A stretch of DNA of 64,000 bases from Planctomycetia bacterium (GTDB lineage: Bacteria > Planctomycetota > Planctomycetia > Pirellulales > UBA1268), in NCBI GenBank assembly GCA_014192425.1, contig BJHK01000008.1:1-64000 (forward strand), written 5' to 3'. The translations under genes were made by a program, and so were the position numbers. Positions 19,104-50,703 of this stretch are shown piece after piece. The number at the start of each line of letters is the position of its first letter. Positions within the stretch are counted from its first letter, which is position 1. Below the pieces are notes generated by a model. The model ran no database searches and was not told the origin of the DNA. It saw only the letters and a list, made by a program, of their open reading frames with translations.

Positions 19104-19262
19104 GGGGTTACCCATGCCCCATCGCCGGCCGTTCGCGGATGCCATCGTGGCATCCGCTCACTCAGACCGGCCCGCGCTTCGGCATCCTGCCTTCGCCGAC
19201 CGATCCGCCTGCGGCGGATCGGTGCCCGCGCTCAAGCCGGCTCCTGGGCCATGGGCAACCCC
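19104..19262. repeat. MITE-like inverted-repeat element, copy C
   Basis: A 159-bp element bounded by GGGGTTACCCATGCCCC and, inverted, GGGCCATGGGCAACCCC. The interior shares GTTCGCGGATGCC, TGGCATCCGCTCACTC and CGCGCTTCG with copies at 23610-23742 and 23839-23971, but has an extra segment around GATCCGCCTGCGGCGGATC. It occupies most of the 272-base gap between convergent tpx and alaS. Confidence 0.75.
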
Positions 19263-22128: not shown

Positions 22129-23289
22129 TCAGTCGCCCCCGCCATCGCCAGCCGACGACGCGGCGATGACGATGTCCTTGCTGGCGAGGATCTTCTCGCG
22201 GAGTTCCTGGGCCACCTCGGGGTTCTCCTTGAGGAACAGGCGGGCCTTCTCCCGCCCCTGCCCGAGGTGCACCTCGCCGTATCGCAGCCAGGTGCCGGTC
22301 TTGTCCACGAGCTTGGCGGTGACGGCCAGGTCGAGGATGTCCCCCTCCACGCTGATGCCGTCGGCGTGCATCATGTCGAACTCGGCCACCCGGAACGGCG
22401 GCGCCACCTTGTTCTTGACCACCTTGACCTTCACCCGCTGTCCGACGACATCCTCGCCGTCTTTCAGCTGGCCGATCCGTCGGACGTCGACCCGGCAGGA
22501 CGAATAGAACTTGAGCGCCCGGCCGCCCGGCGTGGTCTCCGGGCTGCCGAACATGACGCCGATCTTCTCACGGATCTGGTTGATAAAGATCACCGTCGTC
22601 TTCGACTTGGCGATGGCCCCCGTCAGCTTCCGCATCGCCTGGCTCATGAGCCGGGCCTGGAGGCCGACGAACGAGTCACCGATCTCGCCGTCGAGTTCCT
22701 TCTGCGGCACGAGTGCCGCCACGGAGTCGACGACGATGATGTCGATGGCGTTGCTCTTGATCAGCATCTCGGCGATGTTCATCGCCTCCTCGCCACTCGT
22801 CGGCTGGCTGACGAGCAGCGACTCCAAGGAGATGCCCAGCTTCTTTGCCCAGCTCGGGTCGAGCGCGTGCTCGGCGTCAATGAAGGCCGCGATGCCGCCG
22901 GCGCGTTGCGACGCCGCCACGGCATGGAGTGCGAGCGTCGTTTTGCCGCTCGACTCCGGGCCGAAGACCTCGATAATCCGTCCGCGCGGGAAGCCCTTGC
23001 CGCCGAGGGCGAGGTCGACCGACAGGCTGCCGGAGGAGATGCCCTCGATCGGCGCCTGGGCGTCGAGCCCGAGTGGCATGATCGAACCTTCGCCGAACTC
23101 CTTCTCGATCTGGGCGAGCGTGTTCCGCAGCGTGGCGTTGTCCTCGAGGAACGAGGGGATGGGCTTGGCACCCTTTTTCCCTCCGCGTCCCTCGTCGAGT
23201 TTGGCTTCCTTGTCTTTCGCTGCGTCCTTCGCCGCTTTGTCATCCTTTTTGCCCATCCGACCGCTCGCTCCTGCTGGTGCCATGATCAT
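22129..23289 (-). CDS. recA: Recombinase RecA with lysine-rich N-terminal extension
   Basis: A 386-residue RecA. Walker A is GPESSGKT, followed by the conserved [27 protein letters not shown], and the DNA-binding loops around [11 protein letters not shown] and [20 protein letters not shown]. It forms nucleoprotein filaments for recombination and LexA cleavage. About 45 residues rich in Lys, Asp and Gly precede the usual start (near [13 protein letters not shown]). ATG 23289 has GGGAGG 8 bases upstream; ATGs at 23283 and 23256 are also possible. A promoter with a palindromic operator lies at 23373-23416. Confidence 0.96.
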
Positions 23290-23372
23290 GGCTGCTGCCT
23301 CCCACGGTTCCCGGCACGTCGTCGGGGTGGTTGCTTCGCCACCATGAATCGAGCGAGTTGCCGCGGAAACGA

Positions 23373-23416
23373 ATACTGAACCTAGGTATAGTATCGGAGC
23401 CGGCCGGGTTTGGCAA
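23373..23416 (-). promoter_or_regulatory. recA promoter with candidate LexA operator
   Basis: On the minus strand, TTGCCA (23411-23416) is followed after 15 bases by GATACT, or after 17 by TACTAT. A 22-bp imperfect palindrome (23373-23394), centred on ACCTAGGT with outer arms ATACT/AGTAT, overlaps the -10. The block matches the imuA promoter site in about 15 of 22 positions, and both have a TTG-N-CA element 15 bases before N-ATACT. The ATG is 84 bases downstream. Confidence 0.6.
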
Positions 23417-23500
23417 GAAGTTTTTTCGGGCCTGTGGTCCGCCCGGCCCGCGGGGGAGTTTTCGGGGTCTGCGTCCGCGTCCCGTCCGAAAGCCGCCCCA

Positions 23501-23572: not shown

Positions 23573-23609
23573 CATAGTTCCCGCGTACGTAGCCCTTCGG
23601 TCACCAGAC

Positions 23610-23742
23610 GGGGCTGCCCATGCCCCGTTCGCCGGACGTTCGCGGATGCCTTCCTGGCATCCGCTCACTCGATGCCGACCGCGCTTCGCCATCCTGGCTG
23701 CGCTTGTCGTCACACGCCGGCTCTCAGGGCACGGGCAACCCC
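23610..23742. mobile_element. MITE-like inverted-repeat element, copy A
   Basis: A 133-bp element without coding capacity. The left end GGGGCTGCCCATGCCCC is the inverted counterpart of the right end GGGCACGGGCAACCCC. The interior has a smaller palindrome, GGATGCCTTCCTGGCATCC. It is almost identical to copy B (23839-23971) and related to copy C (19104-19262). Confidence 0.7.
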
Positions 23743-23838
23743 TCCACCACCACCCAGTCGGGCAGACATAGGGGCAGACATAGGACAGGCATCGGACAGG
23801 CATAGTTCCCGCGTACGTAGCCCCTTCGGTCACCAGAC

Positions 23839-23971
23839 GGGGCTGCCCATGCCCCGTTCGCCGGACGTTCGCGGATGCCTTCCTGGCATCCGCTCACTCG
23901 ATGCCGACCGCGCTTCGCCATCCTGGCTTCGCTTGTCGTCACACGCCGGCTCTCGGGGCACGGGCAACCCC
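23839..23971. mobile_element. MITE-like inverted-repeat element, copy B
   Basis: A 133-bp element with the same terminal inverted repeats as copy A (left GGGGCTGCCCATGCCCC, right GGGGCACGGGCAACCCC). It differs from copy A at two internal positions. The flanks are duplicated together with copy A, so these two arose by segmental duplication, not two insertions. Confidence 0.7.
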
Positions 23972-24083
23972 TCCACCACCACCCAGTCGAATCCCGCGGC
24001 TACTCGCCCAACATCCCGCGGTCTGGAGGACCGCGGTTCGCCCGTCCGGGCAACCCTTGGCGTTGCCCGCGACGGGCCAAGCG

Positions 24084-44638: not shown

Positions 44639-44682
44639 TTGACAGCCGGGGAACGATTGTATACTGTACATGAGTACATAAA
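44639..44682 (+). promoter_or_regulatory. imuA promoter with candidate LexA operator
   Basis: TTGACA (44639-44644) and TATACT (44660-44665) are 15 bases apart. The palindrome TGTAC-ATGA-GTACA (44665-44678) overlaps the end of the -10. The 22-base block from 44661 matches the recA promoter block in about 15 positions. Both promoters have the same 15-base spacing. The ATG of imuA is at 44701, with GCGGAGG before it. Confidence 0.65.
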
Positions 44683-44700: not shown

Positions 44701-45594
44701 ATGGTGACGTTTGGGCTCGGCCCGTCGGGGCTGGTCGATGCCGGGAGCCTTCAGGTTCGGGAGGCGGCCCGTGAGGTGGTGTCGAGCGGCTTTCGACCAC
44801 TCGATTCCCTGCTGCCGGCCGGCGGCATCCGCCGGGGCAGCCTGATCGAATGGCTGGCCGGTGGCGCGATCGCGGGGGGGGCGGCGACGCTCGCCGCCGC
44901 GGTTGCCTGTCGTCTGGCCCGGGCCGCCCAGCGGTCGCGGACGATTCTCGTCGTCGATCGCTCGGGCTGGTTTCATCCGCCCGCCATCCTTCCCTGGCTG
45001 GGCCGGGAGGGGAGCGGGCTGCAGCTCGTCGTGGCCCGTCCTTCGCGAGACGAGGATGAGATCTGGGCAATCGACCAGGGGCTGCGCTGCGCCGGCGTGG
45101 CGGCCGTGCTGGCATGGCCGCGGATGCAGGCCGCCGGCAGTGGCCTGTGGCCAGCCGCGCAGCGGCGGTCGCCGCCGCACGCCCGACAGCAGTGGTCGAT
45201 CGCGATGCGTCGCTGGCAGTTGGCGGCCAAGTCGAGCGGTGCCATCGGGTTCTTCGTCCGGCCGGCAGCCGCGCAACGGGAGCCCTCCTGGGCCGAGGCG
45301 AGGATCGCCGTCACGCCACTTCCGGGTGGCACGCTGCTGGAACGCCGGCTGCGGCTCGAGCGGGCCGGCGGCTACTGGCCGCTTCCGGCCAGTAGCAACT
45401 GCCCGGAAGTGGCCGGCAATCAGTCTGTCGAGATCGTGCTCGATCTGGAGAGCGGAGCAGCAGCCATCGGGCGCGCCGCCGGCGTGGCGCCGCGCGCCGC
45501 GGAAGGTGTCCGCAGCGGTGCCGTGCGGTCGGACGAGGCGATCGGACCGGCGGCAAGCATTTCCGAGCGGGGTGTGTCATGCCGCGCATCATGA
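44701..45594 (+). CDS. imuA: ImuA-like RecA-fold protein of the SOS mutasome
   Basis: A 297-residue protein upstream of imuB and dnaE2. Like ImuA/SulA-type proteins it starts with a RecA-like region (FRPLDSLLPAGGIRRGSLIE). The P-loop position reads GGAIAGGAATLAA and lacks the Gly-Lys-Thr/Ser of Walker A, so ATP binding is doubtful. ILVVDRSGWFHPPAI and GLRCAGVAAVLAWPR follow. In other bacteria ImuA interacts with RecA and links ImuB to stalled forks. Its 3' end overlaps imuB by 16 bases. Confidence 0.85.
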   Translation: MVTFGLGPSGLVDAGSLQVREAAREVVSSGFRPLDSLLPAGGIRRGSLIEWLAGGAIAGGAATLAAAVACRLARAAQRSRTILVVDRSGWFHPPAILPWLGREGSGLQLVVARPSRDEDEIWAIDQGLRCAGVAAVLAWPRMQAAGSGLWPAAQRRSPPHARQQWSIAMRRWQLAAKSSGAIGFFVRPAAAQREPSWAEARIAVTPLPGGTLLERRLRLERAGGYWPLPASSNCPEVAGNQSVEIVLDLESGAAAIGRAAGVAPRAAEGVRSGAVRSDEAIGPAASISERGVSCRAS

Positions 45595-47432
45595 CGATCT
45601 GGCTGCCGCGCTGGCCGGTGCAGCGGCGGCTCCTGGAGCGGCCCGAGTGGCGTGCGCTGCCGGTGTTCGTCTGCCGCCGCGAGCGCCGTGGCGTGATGAC
45701 GGTGGTCTCGTGGGCCTGGGCGGAGCCGCCCCGGTCGGCGGCCCGACGTGCGGGGGGACGTCGGCCGAGGATTCCCGAGGGCATGTCGCTCGCCGAGGCG
45801 ATGGCGGTGCTGTCGCTGGCTCACGGTTCCCCTGCCTGCCATGTCGCCGAGGTCGTGCCTGACGACCCGGCCGCGGACCGGGCCGCACTCGATCAGTTGG
45901 GCCGCTGGTGCCGCCGGTTCTCGCCGACGGTGGGCATCATGGATGACGCCGCCTGGACACCTGCCGAATGCATCCACCTCGACGTGACCGGCACGGCGAA
46001 CTTCTTCGGCGGCGAGGCGGCCCTGGCCCGCACGGCCGTCTGGACGCTCGCGGCCCGTGGGGTGCATGGGCGGGTCGCCATTGCCGACACCTGCGCCGCC
46101 TCCTGGGCGGCCGCACGGCACACCGACCTGCTGCGCGATCCGCGGGAAGCGGTCGGTTCCCGCTCCACGCTCGTGTCACGGCGGCGGCGGCGCTGGGGCG
46201 TCGTGCCCGCCGGTGCCCAGCGGCAGTGGAGAGGTGCAGACGCCGCGCTGGCCGGCCTGCCGCTGACGGCGTTGCGTCTCGACCAGGCCACGATCGGAAT
46301 GCTCGGCGAACTGGGCATCGACACGATCGGTGGCGCGCTGCGGTTGCCGGCGGCGGCGCTCGCATCCCGCTTTCCCCCCCTGCTCTCCCTGCGGCTCGCC
46401 CAGTTCACGGGCGCCGTCGCCGAGCCGCTGGCGGCGCCGCGCGGCGAGGAATTGCCGCAGGCGACGCAGGCATTCGAGGTGCCGCTGGCGGGCCGGGAGG
46501 AAATCAGGCAGACGCTGGAGCACGTGATCGACCGGCTGGTGGCGGCATGCGTCGCACCGCTGGCCGCACGGGGCAAGGGCGTGCTCGCGCTGCAGGTGCG
46601 TCTGGAGCAGGCTGCAGCCGCGTCGGCCGCGACCGCGGCGCCGATCGTCGTCGATGTCGGGCTCTTCCGGCCGAGCGTCTCGGTCCGGCATCTCGTCGAT
46701 CTCGTGCGGCTCCGGCTGGAGCGGGTCCGGCTGGCCGGCGACGTCGAGGGAGTGGCCGTGGAGGTACTGGCAGCGGGCACCGTGGCCTGCCGGCAGCGGT
46801 CGCTCTTCGAGACGCACGACGCCGACGACGCGGCCGGCATCGAGCCGCTGCTCGATCGGCTCTCCAGCCGGCTCGGGCGCGGGGCCGTGTTCGAGCCGAA
46901 GGGGGTGGCCGATGCCCAGCCGGAGCAGGCCTGGATCGCGGCGCCACCCGGCACGGGAGTGGTTCGCACGGACGGACGCGATGCCGGTGGCGGTACGGCG
47001 AGCGAACCGCGCACGGAGGGCCGCGCCGGTTCCCGGTCGCAGCATGGGCCCCCCCGGGAACGGACGCCCCGGGAACGGTCGGTCTGGGAGCAGGTGCGCT
47101 GGGGGGATCGGGTGCCACTGGCCGGTCTGACGCTGCAGCGGGCGGCCGGTCGGCGGCCTCTCTGGATGCTGCCCCGCCCCCTGCCGCTCGAGCCGCTGCT
47201 GGCGGGCCCGGTGGCGATCGCGCCGGACGGCCCGCCGCTGCGGTTTCGGCTCGGTGACGAGGTGCATGCGATCGTGCAAGCGTACGGGCCCGAGCGGATC
47301 GAGACGGCGTGGTGGCGCGGGCCGACCGTGCGGCGCGACTACTACGTTGTCGAGACGGAGTCGGGGGGCCGGTTCTGGGTCTTCCGCCGCCTGCGGGACG
47401 GGGGCTGGTTTCTGCATGGGACGTTTGCCTGA
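45579..47432 (+). CDS. imuB: ImuB-like Y-family polymerase, probably non-catalytic
   Basis: A 617-residue Y-family-like protein. It has the N-terminal MPRIMTIWLPRWPVQRRL, palm-region IHLDVTGTANFFGGE and the C-terminal segments around FEPKGVADAQPEQAW, then PLPLEPLL and YYVVETESGGRFWVFRRLRD. The conserved acidic residues of active Y polymerases (D in the first motif, S-x-D-E in the second) are not present, as in other ImuB proteins. It probably serves as the beta-clamp adaptor between ImuA and DnaE2. It overlaps imuA and is followed by dnaE2 after 34 bases. Confidence 0.88.
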   Translation: MPRIMTIWLPRWPVQRRLLERPEWRALPVFVCRRERRGVMTVVSWAWAEPPRSAARRAGGRRPRIPEGMSLAEAMAVLSLAHGSPACHVAEVVPDDPAADRAALDQLGRWCRRFSPTVGIMDDAAWTPAECIHLDVTGTANFFGGEAALARTAVWTLAARGVHGRVAIADTCAASWAAARHTDLLRDPREAVGSRSTLVSRRRRRWGVVPAGAQRQWRGADAALAGLPLTALRLDQATIGMLGELGIDTIGGALRLPAAALASRFPPLLSLRLAQFTGAVAEPLAAPRGEELPQATQAFEVPLAGREEIRQTLEHVIDRLVAACVAPLAARGKGVLALQVRLEQAAAASAATAAPIVVDVGLFRPSVSVRHLVDLVRLRLERVRLAGDVEGVAVEVLAAGTVACRQRSLFETHDADDAAGIEPLLDRLSSRLGRGAVFEPKGVADAQPEQAWIAAPPGTGVVRTDGRDAGGGTASEPRTEGRAGSRSQHGPPRERTPRERSVWEQVRWGDRVPLAGLTLQRAAGRRPLWMLPRPLPLEPLLAGPVAIAPDGPPLRFRLGDEVHAIVQAYGPERIETAWWRGPTVRRDYYVVETESGGRFWVFRRLRDGGWFLHGTFA

Positions 47433-47466
47433 GTATGGAGCGCGTGCGCGAAGGAGCGGGATTGCC

Positions 47467-50400
47467 ATGAATGCGACTCGATCGGCTGGACCGCGGTATG
47501 CGGAATTGCACTGCATGAGCAACTTCTCCTTTCTCGAGGGGGCCTCGCATCCCGAGGAGCTCGTGCAACGGGCCGGGGAACTTGGCTACGAGGCCCTGGC
47601 GATCACCGACCGGGCCTCGCTCGCCGGCATCGTGCGTGCCCACGGAGCCGCCCGGGACACCGGGATCAAGCTGATCGTCGGCACGCACCTGGAGCCGTGC
47701 GATGCTGCACCGCTGGTCGTCTGGGCGGCCGATCGCACGGGGTACGCGAACCTCTGCCGGCTGCTCACCCGCGGCTACGGTCGCGGTCGGGAGAACGGGG
47801 CGTGCGTGCTCACCTACGACGACGTGGTTCGGCATTCCGCCGGCCTGCTGGCGGGCGTGCCGCTGGCGGCGCTGCCCGGAAGCGACGGCCGCGACGAGCG
47901 GCTGCGTGCCGAGGCGATCGAGGCCCTGCAGCACTGGCGCAGCGCGTTCGACGGCCGGATCTGGGCGCTGGCCGAGGTGGCGCTCGAGGGGGACGATGCG
48001 GACCGCCTCCGGTCGTTCGGCCACGTGGCCCGGCTGGCGGGCGTGCCGGTCGCCGCGGCTGGCGACGTGCGCTACCACGAGCGGTCGCGGCTCCCGCTCC
48101 ACGACGTGCTCGCGGCCGTGCGGCACGGCGGCACGGTCGACGCGATTCGCGGCCGGCTGCTCGCCAACGGCGAGCGCCATCTCCACGAGCGCTGGCGGAT
48201 CGCTGCGCGGTTCGCCGCGCTGCCCGGCAGCCTCGAGCAGGCGGTCGAGATCGCCGGCCGCTGCACGTTCACGCTCGACGAGCTGCGGTACGACTACCCC
48301 GCGGCGAGCGTGCCGCCGGGCCGCACGCCCCGCGAGCACCTTGCCGAACTGGCCTGGAACGGCGCCCGGCGCCGGTATGTGGAAGGCATTCCCGACAAGG
48401 TGTGCGAGCTCCTCATCCACGAACTGGCGCTGATCGCAGAACTCGGCTACGAGGCCTACTTCCTCACCGTGCACGACATCGTCCGGTTCGCCCGCAGCCG
48501 CGGCATCCTCTGCCAGGGCCGCGGCTCGGCCGCCAATTCGGCCGTCTGTTACTGCCTCGGGATCACGGCGGTCGATCCGGCGCGGATGAACGTGCTCTTC
48601 GAGCGGTTCGTGAGCCGGGAGCGGCGCGAGGCTCCCGATATCGACATCGATTTCGAGCATCAGCGCCGCGAGGAGGTGCTGCAGTACATCTACGACACCT
48701 ACGGCCGCGATCGGGCGGCGATGACGGCCGAGGTGATCCGCTACCGGCTCCGGTCGGCCGTGCGCGACGTCGGCAAGGCGGTCGGACTGACGCTCGATCG
48801 CGTCGCTGCGATCGCGCAGGTCCTCGACCCCGGCGACGGCGTCGAGGACCTGCCGCGGCGGCTCGTCGAGGCCGGCCTCGATCCTGCCGCGGCCACCTGC
48901 GCGCGGCTCGAGGCGCTCGTCGGCCAGCTCGTCGGCTTTCCCCGGCACCTCGGCCAGCACGTCGGCGGCATGATCATGACACGGGGGGATCTCTGCGATC
49001 TCGTGCCGATCCAGCCGGCGGCGATGGACGGCCGGACGATCGTGCAGTGGAACAAGGACGACCTCGACGAACTCGGCATCCTCAAGGTCGACTGCCTGGC
49101 GCTCGGCATGCTGACGGCGATCCACCGGGCCTTCGACCTGGTGGTGGCGGCGGGGGGGCCGCGGCTCATGCTCGACACGGTGCCCGCCGAGGATCCGGCC
49201 GTCTACGAGATGATCTCCCGGGCAGACACCGTGGGCGTGTTCCAGATCGAGAGCCGGGCCCAGATGAGCATGCTGCCCCGGCTCCGGCCGCAGTGCTTCT
49301 ACGACCTCGTCATCGAGGTGGCGATCGTCCGCCCCGGGCCGATCCAGGGGGACATGGTCCATCCCTACCTGCGCCGGCGTTGCGGTGAGGAGCAGCCGAC
49401 GTATCCCAACGACGCGATCCGCGCGGTGCTGGAGAAGACGCTCGGTGTGCCCCTCTTCCAGGAGCAGGCGATGCGACTGGCCGTGGTGGCGGCCGGCTTC
49501 ACGCCCGGCGAGGCGGACCAGTTGCGGCGGGCGATGGGGGCCTGGCGCCGGCCCGGCGTCATCGACGAGTTCCACCGCCGGCTGGTCGACGGCATGCTCG
49601 CCAACGGCCTGTCCCGCGAGTTCGCCGAGCAGGTCTTCAACCAGATCCGCGGCTTCGGCGAGTACGGCTTTCCCGAGTCGCATGCCGCGAGTTTCGCCCT
49701 CCTGGTCTATGTCTCTGCGTGGCTCAAGTGCCACCATCCGGCGGCGTTCACGGCGGCGTTGCTCGGCAGCCAGCCGATGGGTTTTTACGCGCCGGCGCAG
49801 CTCGTTCGCGACGCCCGGGCACACGGCGTGACGGTGCTGCCGGTGGACGTGAACGCCAGCTGCTGGCAGGCGACGCTGGAGGTCGGCTCCTCCCCGGCCG
49901 GCGAACGTCGCGAGCCGGCGATCCGCCTCGGTCTGGAGCAGGTGCATGGGCTGGGGCCGGGGCCGGCGCTGCGGATCGAGGAGGCCCGGCGACAGGGGCC
50001 GTTTCGCCTGCCGCGCGACCTGGCACTTCGGGCCGGACTCGACCGCGAGACGCTCCTGCACATCGCCCGCGCCGGGGCCCTCGGCTCGCTGGGGTTGAAC
50101 CGGCGCCGGGCGGTCTGGGAGGCACTACAGTGCCTCGATCGGCCCGACCGCCGGCCGCTCCTCGATGGTCTCGCCGACCCGGACATCGATGTCGAGGACG
50201 ATGAGAATGACGGCGCGGAGGATGATTTCCTGCCGGCGACGACCGCGCGCGAGGAGGTGATCGACGACTATCGCACGGGCGGGCTGTCGCTGGCGGCCCA
50301 TCCGCTCCAGTTCGACCGCGACTGGCTCGCCGTCCGCGGCGCGATCACGACCGCCGCTGTGGCCGTGGCCCCGGAGGGGCGGCGGGTGCAGGTGGCGGGG

Positions 50401-50703
50401 ATCGTGCTGACGCGGCAGCGGCCGGCGACGGCGAAGGGGCTGATGTTCATGACGATCGAGGACGAGACGGGGGCGGCCAACGTCCTCGTCCGGCCCGATG
50501 TCTGGGAGCGGACGGCCCCCGCGGCGCGGCGGGCCGCGGTGCTCGTCGTGCATGGCAGGGTGCAGCGGCGCGGCGCCGTGATCCACGTCGTGGCGACCAG
50601 GCTCGAACCCTGTGTGCCTCTCCCTGCGGAGCGTCGCTCGAGCGTGGCTGATTCCCGGTCGCTGCCCGCCGAGCTGCCGCGGATGAGTCGCGATTTTCAC
50701 TGA
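47467..50703 (+). CDS. dnaE2: Error-prone DNA polymerase DnaE2
   Basis: A 1078-residue C-family polymerase. The PHP domain is N-terminal (YAELHCMSNFSFLEGASHPE), the catalytic aspartates are in APDIDIDFEHQRREEV (about residue 390), and GFPRHLGQHVGGMIM and FQIESRAQMSMLPRL are typical of DnaE2. Near the C-terminus is an OB-fold (VAGIVLTRQRPATAKGLMFM). It is the polymerase of the damage-induced ImuA/ImuB/DnaE2 mutasome. ATG 47467 was chosen from the conserved N-terminus. Confidence 0.95.
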   Translation: MNATRSAGPRYAELHCMSNFSFLEGASHPEELVQRAGELGYEALAITDRASLAGIVRAHGAARDTGIKLIVGTHLEPCDAAPLVVWAADRTGYANLCRLLTRGYGRGRENGACVLTYDDVVRHSAGLLAGVPLAALPGSDGRDERLRAEAIEALQHWRSAFDGRIWALAEVALEGDDADRLRSFGHVARLAGVPVAAAGDVRYHERSRLPLHDVLAAVRHGGTVDAIRGRLLANGERHLHERWRIAARFAALPGSLEQAVEIAGRCTFTLDELRYDYPAASVPPGRTPREHLAELAWNGARRRYVEGIPDKVCELLIHELALIAELGYEAYFLTVHDIVRFARSRGILCQGRGSAANSAVCYCLGITAVDPARMNVLFERFVSRERREAPDIDIDFEHQRREEVLQYIYDTYGRDRAAMTAEVIRYRLRSAVRDVGKAVGLTLDRVAAIAQVLDPGDGVEDLPRRLVEAGLDPAAATCARLEALVGQLVGFPRHLGQHVGGMIMTRGDLCDLVPIQPAAMDGRTIVQWNKDDLDELGILKVDCLALGMLTAIHRAFDLVVAAGGPRLMLDTVPAEDPAVYEMISRADTVGVFQIESRAQMSMLPRLRPQCFYDLVIEVAIVRPGPIQGDMVHPYLRRRCGEEQPTYPNDAIRAVLEKTLGVPLFQEQAMRLAVVAAGFTPGEADQLRRAMGAWRRPGVIDEFHRRLVDGMLANGLSREFAEQVFNQIRGFGEYGFPESHAASFALLVYVSAWLKCHHPAAFTAALLGSQPMGFYAPAQLVRDARAHGVTVLPVDVNASCWQATLEVGSSPAGERREPAIRLGLEQVHGLGPGPALRIEEARRQGPFRLPRDLALRAGLDRETLLHIARAGALGSLGLNRRRAVWEALQCLDRPDRRPLLDGLADPDIDVEDDENDGAEDDFLPATTAREEVIDDYRTGGLSLAAHPLQFDRDWLAVRGAITTAAVAVAPEGRRVQVAGIVLTRQRPATAKGLMFMTIEDETGAANVLVRPDVWERTAPAARRAAVLVVHGRVQRRGAVIHVVATRLEPCVPLPAERRSSVADSRSLPAELPRMSRDFH

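Follow-up and report, generated by a model that had tools for sequence, protein, structure and literature searches.

A putative LexA operator in the recA promoter of a planctomycete of the order Pirellulales

The recA promoter and its palindrome

The recA gene of a planctomycete, placed in the order Pirellulales by its recA relatives, is preceded by a palindrome, which raises the question of whether this is a repressor operator and, if so, which of its letters matter and which repressor would read them. We analysed a window of 64,000 nucleotides, the whole stretch of DNA presented here, in which a first-pass annotation had described a 22-bp imperfect palindrome upstream of recA. The palindrome was found exactly as described (ATACTATACCTAGGTTCAGTAT, 23394-23373 on the minus strand), with its centre, ACCTAGGT in minus-strand reading, at 23380-23387, and the recA ATG at 23289 lies, as had been stated, 84 bases beyond the palindrome end, behind a ribosome-binding site. 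The promoter proposed for it, TTGCCA-N15-GATACT, was half right: TTGCCA is in place (23416-23411), but N15-GATACT is 2 bp off and TTGCCA-N17-TACTAT is the better reading, being the one site that a consensus promoter scan found in the region and one that occurred in 0 of 50 shuffles. The features of the locus are as follows.

22129..23289, minus strand: recA coding sequence (Pfam PF00154, NCBIfam TIGR02012)
23290..23372, minus strand: recA 5' leader, TCGCTCGATTYATGGTGGC...CCACCCCG, strongly conserved in most of the family
23298..23303, minus strand: recA ribosome-binding site GGGAGG (23303-23298), from the sequence
23373..23394, minus strand: 22-bp imperfect palindrome, 9 of 11 pairs complementary, outer arms not conserved as a dyad
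23377..23390, minus strand: predicted LexA box TATAC-CTAG-GTTCA, the palindrome core; TRWAC-N4-GTWYA fills this position in almost every recA promoter of the family and recurs in lexA and imuA promoters
23388..23393, minus strand: recA -10 hexamer TACTAT, 17-bp spacer, 3 bp in common with the box; TAnnAT in relatives
23411..23416, minus strand: recA -35 hexamer TTGCCA; TTGCC kept in most relatives
23427..23440, minus strand: place of a second box, degenerate here (GGACCACAGGCCCG); 36 of 56 family members have a box there

By itself, the palindrome is not beyond chance, but its inner 14 bp are. The window holds 62 22-mers in which 9 or more of the 11 pairs are complementary, and about one ATACT-N12-AGTAT with up to 2 mismatches is expected by chance per window, so that the bare palindrome is unremarkable. 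The abundance of such dyads is what speaks for a chance palindrome without function, a reading that we regard as next to impossible, since the position and sequence of the site are conserved in 12 genera and the site is common to lexA and imuA.

The conserved leader downstream of the site occurs as one strong copy per genome, before recA. It was rejected as a known riboswitch, as it has no Rfam match at E values up to 5, and as a more general RNA element, as the strong matches of its model all lie before recA. Folding energy of the leader in the window was no better than that of shuffles (z -0.32) and covariation was slight (2 of 18 pairs). The leader may form a hairpin GGYGG/CCRCC, for which one compensatory pair was seen; equally possible is a short upstream ORF, MVAxQPPR, whose frame is broken in one genus. 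Separately, a 168-bp direct repeat (99% identical, 23593-23760 and 23822-23989) lies between recA and a pfkB-type gene; with a related 80-bp copy at 19117-19196, the set looks like a dispersed intergenic repeat.

Conserved letters at recA, imuA and lexA

The palindrome had also been said to pair with a site before imuA, and this site, TGTACATGAGTACA at 44665-44678, is present directly after TTGACA...TATACT. Comparison of the recA site with the imuA site first suggested TRWAC-N4-GTWYA as the shared, functional unit, which in the recA palindrome occupies the inner 14 bp (23377-23390). The imuA locus is organised as follows.

44639..44644, plus strand: imuA promoter -35 TTGACA, from the sequence
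44660..44665, plus strand: imuA promoter -10 TATACT, 15-bp spacer; alternative TACTGT at 17 bp
44665..44678, plus strand: predicted imuA LexA box TGTAC-ATGA-GTACA, by sequence comparison
44701..45594, plus strand: imuA-like gene (NCBIfam NF033429, E 1.5e-19, below the curated cut-off)
45579..47432, plus strand: imuB-like ORF, assigned by position only, with no Pfam or NCBIfam model matched; homologues follow the box in relatives
47254..50703, plus strand: dnaE2-type error-prone polymerase (NCBIfam NF004225, 1375 bits)

A box stands upstream of imuA in 19 of 29 loci, some of which are shortened by contig ends. When the window was scanned with a LexA-box matrix, the imuA site ranked first (19.6 bits) and the recA site second (14.7 bits), the next best reaching 9.0; both sites belong to promoters on which the matrix itself was trained, so the ranking is illustrative and conservation is the evidence. 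The asymmetric recA site, with its TATAC and TGAAC halves, is among the lowest-scoring training members (range 14.5-21.3 bits).

Conservation across related recA promoters separates the inner box from the outer arms. Over 12 genera of the family, the recA box keeps its place relative to a TTG-type -35 and the -10; the exceptions are four loci of one genus with CATAC for TATAC and two loci of another genus with one changed letter in the right half. The first-pass signature ATACT-N12-AGTAT, by comparison, is exact in the window but in only 6 of 56 family recA promoters, and is absent from the imuA and lexA promoters. That these outer arms are the operator of another repressor is very improbable. 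The left arm ATACT is common on its own (38 of 56), but it is explained as the -10 region, and the right arm falls within early transcribed sequence. Moreover, the right arm reads AGTGT in 32 of 56 promoters and the left arm ATAGT in 11 of 56 with no matching substitution on the right. Nowhere else in the genome does ATACT-N12-AGTAT occur exactly, and with neither recurrence nor conservation, it was rejected as an operator.

Of the 56 family promoters, 36 have another box 49-51 bp upstream of the one at recA. In the window, its counterpart is degenerate, so recA may be less tightly repressed here than in relatives. Outside the family, most recA promoters of the order have degenerate boxes, often in tandem, instead of the strict box. 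In the order's other families, the stretch CGATAC is part of a further degenerate box, an overlapping one 15 bp upstream, from which the CGATAC at recA in the window may have been inherited. Tandem degenerate boxes 15 bp apart, such as TGTACGCCGATACAGTATCCAAGCGTACA, were seen in most of the recA upstream regions from other families of the order (L133-L143).

As the motif was chosen from the recA and imuA sites of the window, there is some circularity in the conservation counts for these two genes in near relatives; the lexA promoters and the spacing and -35 controls described below are independent of that choice. The genome encodes a full-length LexA with both PF01726 (wHTH) and PF00717 (S24), which matches the TIGR00498 equivalog at 192 bits, and alignment to solved LexA chains showed that Ala-Gly, Ser and Lys are kept (WVAAGTL, GDSMID and ATLKYW). 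Its own lexA promoter carries the box TGAACGGCCGTATA. A box was found before lexA in 28 of 30 loci taken from the order; the two exceptions are a locus truncated by a contig end 127 bases upstream and one with a near match. Elsewhere in the phylum, the strict box is mostly absent before lexA, and the motif is thus not phylum-wide. The same genome also encodes a protein of about 100 amino acids with the LexA DNA-binding domain only (L197 942-1247, minus strand; G000 contig 8: 102498-102677), maybe within a mobile element, which could compete for the same boxes.

The earlier view of a repressor operator that overlaps the recA promoter and is common to imuA was borne out, the box reaching into the -10. 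What changes is the signature, for which TRWAC-N4-GTWYA takes the place of the outer arms, and the repressor, which can be named as a probable LexA because lexA's own promoter has the same site.

Spacing and promoter context across the genome

The strict motif is specific to a 4-bp spacer. The lexA, recA and imuB loci, 320 kb in all, held 68 N4 sites, and most other spacings gave 0-3; the exceptions were 13 N2 sites, in recA loci, and 10 N9 sites, 7 of them in imuB loci. Eighty recA loci mostly from other phyla yielded one N4 site in 312 kb, outside promoters. The planctomycete's own genome has 22 strict N4 sites versus 43 over ten other spacings within 0-10, or about 4 each (Poisson 1e-9); two of the 22, on contigs C21 and C46, lie in matching sequence and may represent a single site that the assembly duplicated. 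Promoter context points the same way: a TTG-type -35, defined as a match of at least 5 of 6 to TTGACA, lies within 30 bp of 15 of the 21 N4 sites examined versus 1 of 29 sites with other spacings (Fisher 3e-7). Genome-wide support rests on these spacing and -35 controls, in place of matrix statistics.

Target genes were assigned by the nearest plausible ORF. The genes adjoining N4 sites include lexA, recA, imuA, ssb, nrdJ (class II ribonucleotide reductase) and a C5 DNA methylase, and, further, genes for antitoxin, PIN, HEPN and DUF4258 proteins, two Y1 (REP-type) transposases and an integron integrase. The core SOS genes with a box in the promoter are recA, imuA-dnaE2 and ssb; several of the 22 sites adjoin no recognisable DNA-repair gene. 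Boxes beside toxin-antitoxin-like genes (Unstab_antitox, DUF4258, PIN, HEPN) and Y1 REP-type transposases (L176, L178, L179, L191, L175 and L181) suggest SOS-linked mobile or addiction genes.

The conserved sequence might instead be a promoter element, formed by the -10 and the initial transcribed sequence, with no operator at all. The box does overlap the recA -10 and abut the imuA -10, and a TATAC half-site can double as TATACT. However, the box occupies different positions relative to the -35 and -10: between the two, within the spacer, in lexA, nrdJ and dcm, across the last letters of the -10 and the presumed start in recA, and directly after the -10 in imuA. This argues that it is not simply a promoter element, as do its two-fold symmetry with a fixed N4 and the second copies at recA, which lie 50 bp further upstream and clear of the -10. 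We consider this explanation most unlikely.

We conclude that the inner 14-bp recA site is very probably a LexA (SOS) operator. Its identity is based on sequence, genome-wide distribution, spacing specificity, promoter overlap, conservation and a LexA with its catalytic residues. A LexA dimer would bind TRWAC-N4-GTWYA and, at recA, cover about -9 to +5 of the promoter relative to the presumed start, so that RNA polymerase would be blocked. When DNA is damaged, RecA filaments would cause LexA to cleave itself at Ala-Gly, which would free recA, lexA, imuA-(imuB)-dnaE2, ssb, nrdJ and other targets for induction.

Known LexA boxes and integron integrases

The Gram-positive LexA box has the consensus CGAAC-N4-GTTCG. 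Like it and the cyanobacterial box, the planctomycete box is an N4 palindrome with obligatory A-C and G-T beside the spacer, several of its half-sites read TGAAC, and its targets include lexA, recA and ssb. It differs in having T/A for the outer C/G, in its frequent TGTAC and TATAC half-sites and in that the TATAC half often serves as the -10. The full form GAAC-N4-GTTC is rare in the core SOS promoters, where half-sites mix TGTAC, TATAC and TGAAC; an intermediate form, TGAAC-N4-GTTCA, precedes lexA in one family of the phylum (f50). The Gram-positive and cyanobacterial boxes are themselves related, according to the title of Mazon et al. 2004 (cited in PMC13416735).

With the E. coli box CTGT-N8-ACAG, the planctomycete box shares TGTA...TACA at the same distance in imuA-type sites, the repressor family and the regulon logic; unlike in the E. 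coli box, the C and G beside the spacer are invariant and an outer C/G is not required. CTGT-N8-ACAG was not found in the genome's own lexA and recA promoters, where the sites read ATGAACGGCCGTATAG and CTATACCTAGGTTCAG, respectively, and planctomycete LexA has been reported not to recognise the E. coli motif (PMC3108266). Judged by its letters, the planctomycete box appears to be a variant close to the Gram-positive/cyanobacterial box and a strict member of neither the Gram-positive nor the E. coli type, and we propose that it would work in the manner of the Gram-positive and cyanobacterial boxes. By 2021, 17 LexA motifs had been described, one bacterial group at a time (PMC8565304). The literature that we searched, which included few subscription papers, contained no planctomycete LexA motif, and an earlier description is possible.

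The box also occurs before integron integrase genes. Of 196 genomes of the order, 48 have a TIGR02249 integron integrase that scores above the cut-off, and a strict box precedes intI in 5 of 30 loci fetched versus about 0.06 expected from the genome site density. A matrix score of at least 10 was reached in 9 of 28 analysable intI promoters versus 0.36 expected from shuffles; real flanks have a higher background than shuffles (17 sites in 84 kb, true ones included), which raises the expectation to at most about 2. A weaker site was seen at one further locus, and 20 additional lower-ranked intI upstream regions gave one doubtful site, so about one in five of all intI loci is boxed. Three changes suffice to explain the box on the IntI tree, a count lower than in each of 500 label shuffles, and the box is thus clustered in two IntI groups. 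One of the two integrases of the planctomycete's own genome is boxed (L204 307-320, G000 contig 22), the other boxed promoters being L207, L208, L212, L217, L218, L220, L221 and L224.

A LexA box in the intI promoter is a feature of the SOS-controlled V. cholerae intIA and mobile intI1 (PMC3108266), from which the planctomycete intI box differs in being of the planctomycete type. The same study reported that the intI promoters it analysed were completely free of non-E. coli LexA motifs and explained Rhodopirellula baltica by its divergent LexA. The predicted boxes in planctomycete intI promoters run contrary to that statement of E. coli-type sites only. It is likely that the order has its own LexA operator type and that many of its chromosomal integrons kept or regained SOS control through it.

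For a large order in which laboratory tools are scarce, these results provide a testable 14-bp operator and a predicted SOS regulon. They reopen the published inference that SOS control of integrons was lost in bacteria whose LexA motifs are divergent and, if true, would tie integron recombination to DNA damage well beyond the bacteria with E. coli-type LexA boxes.
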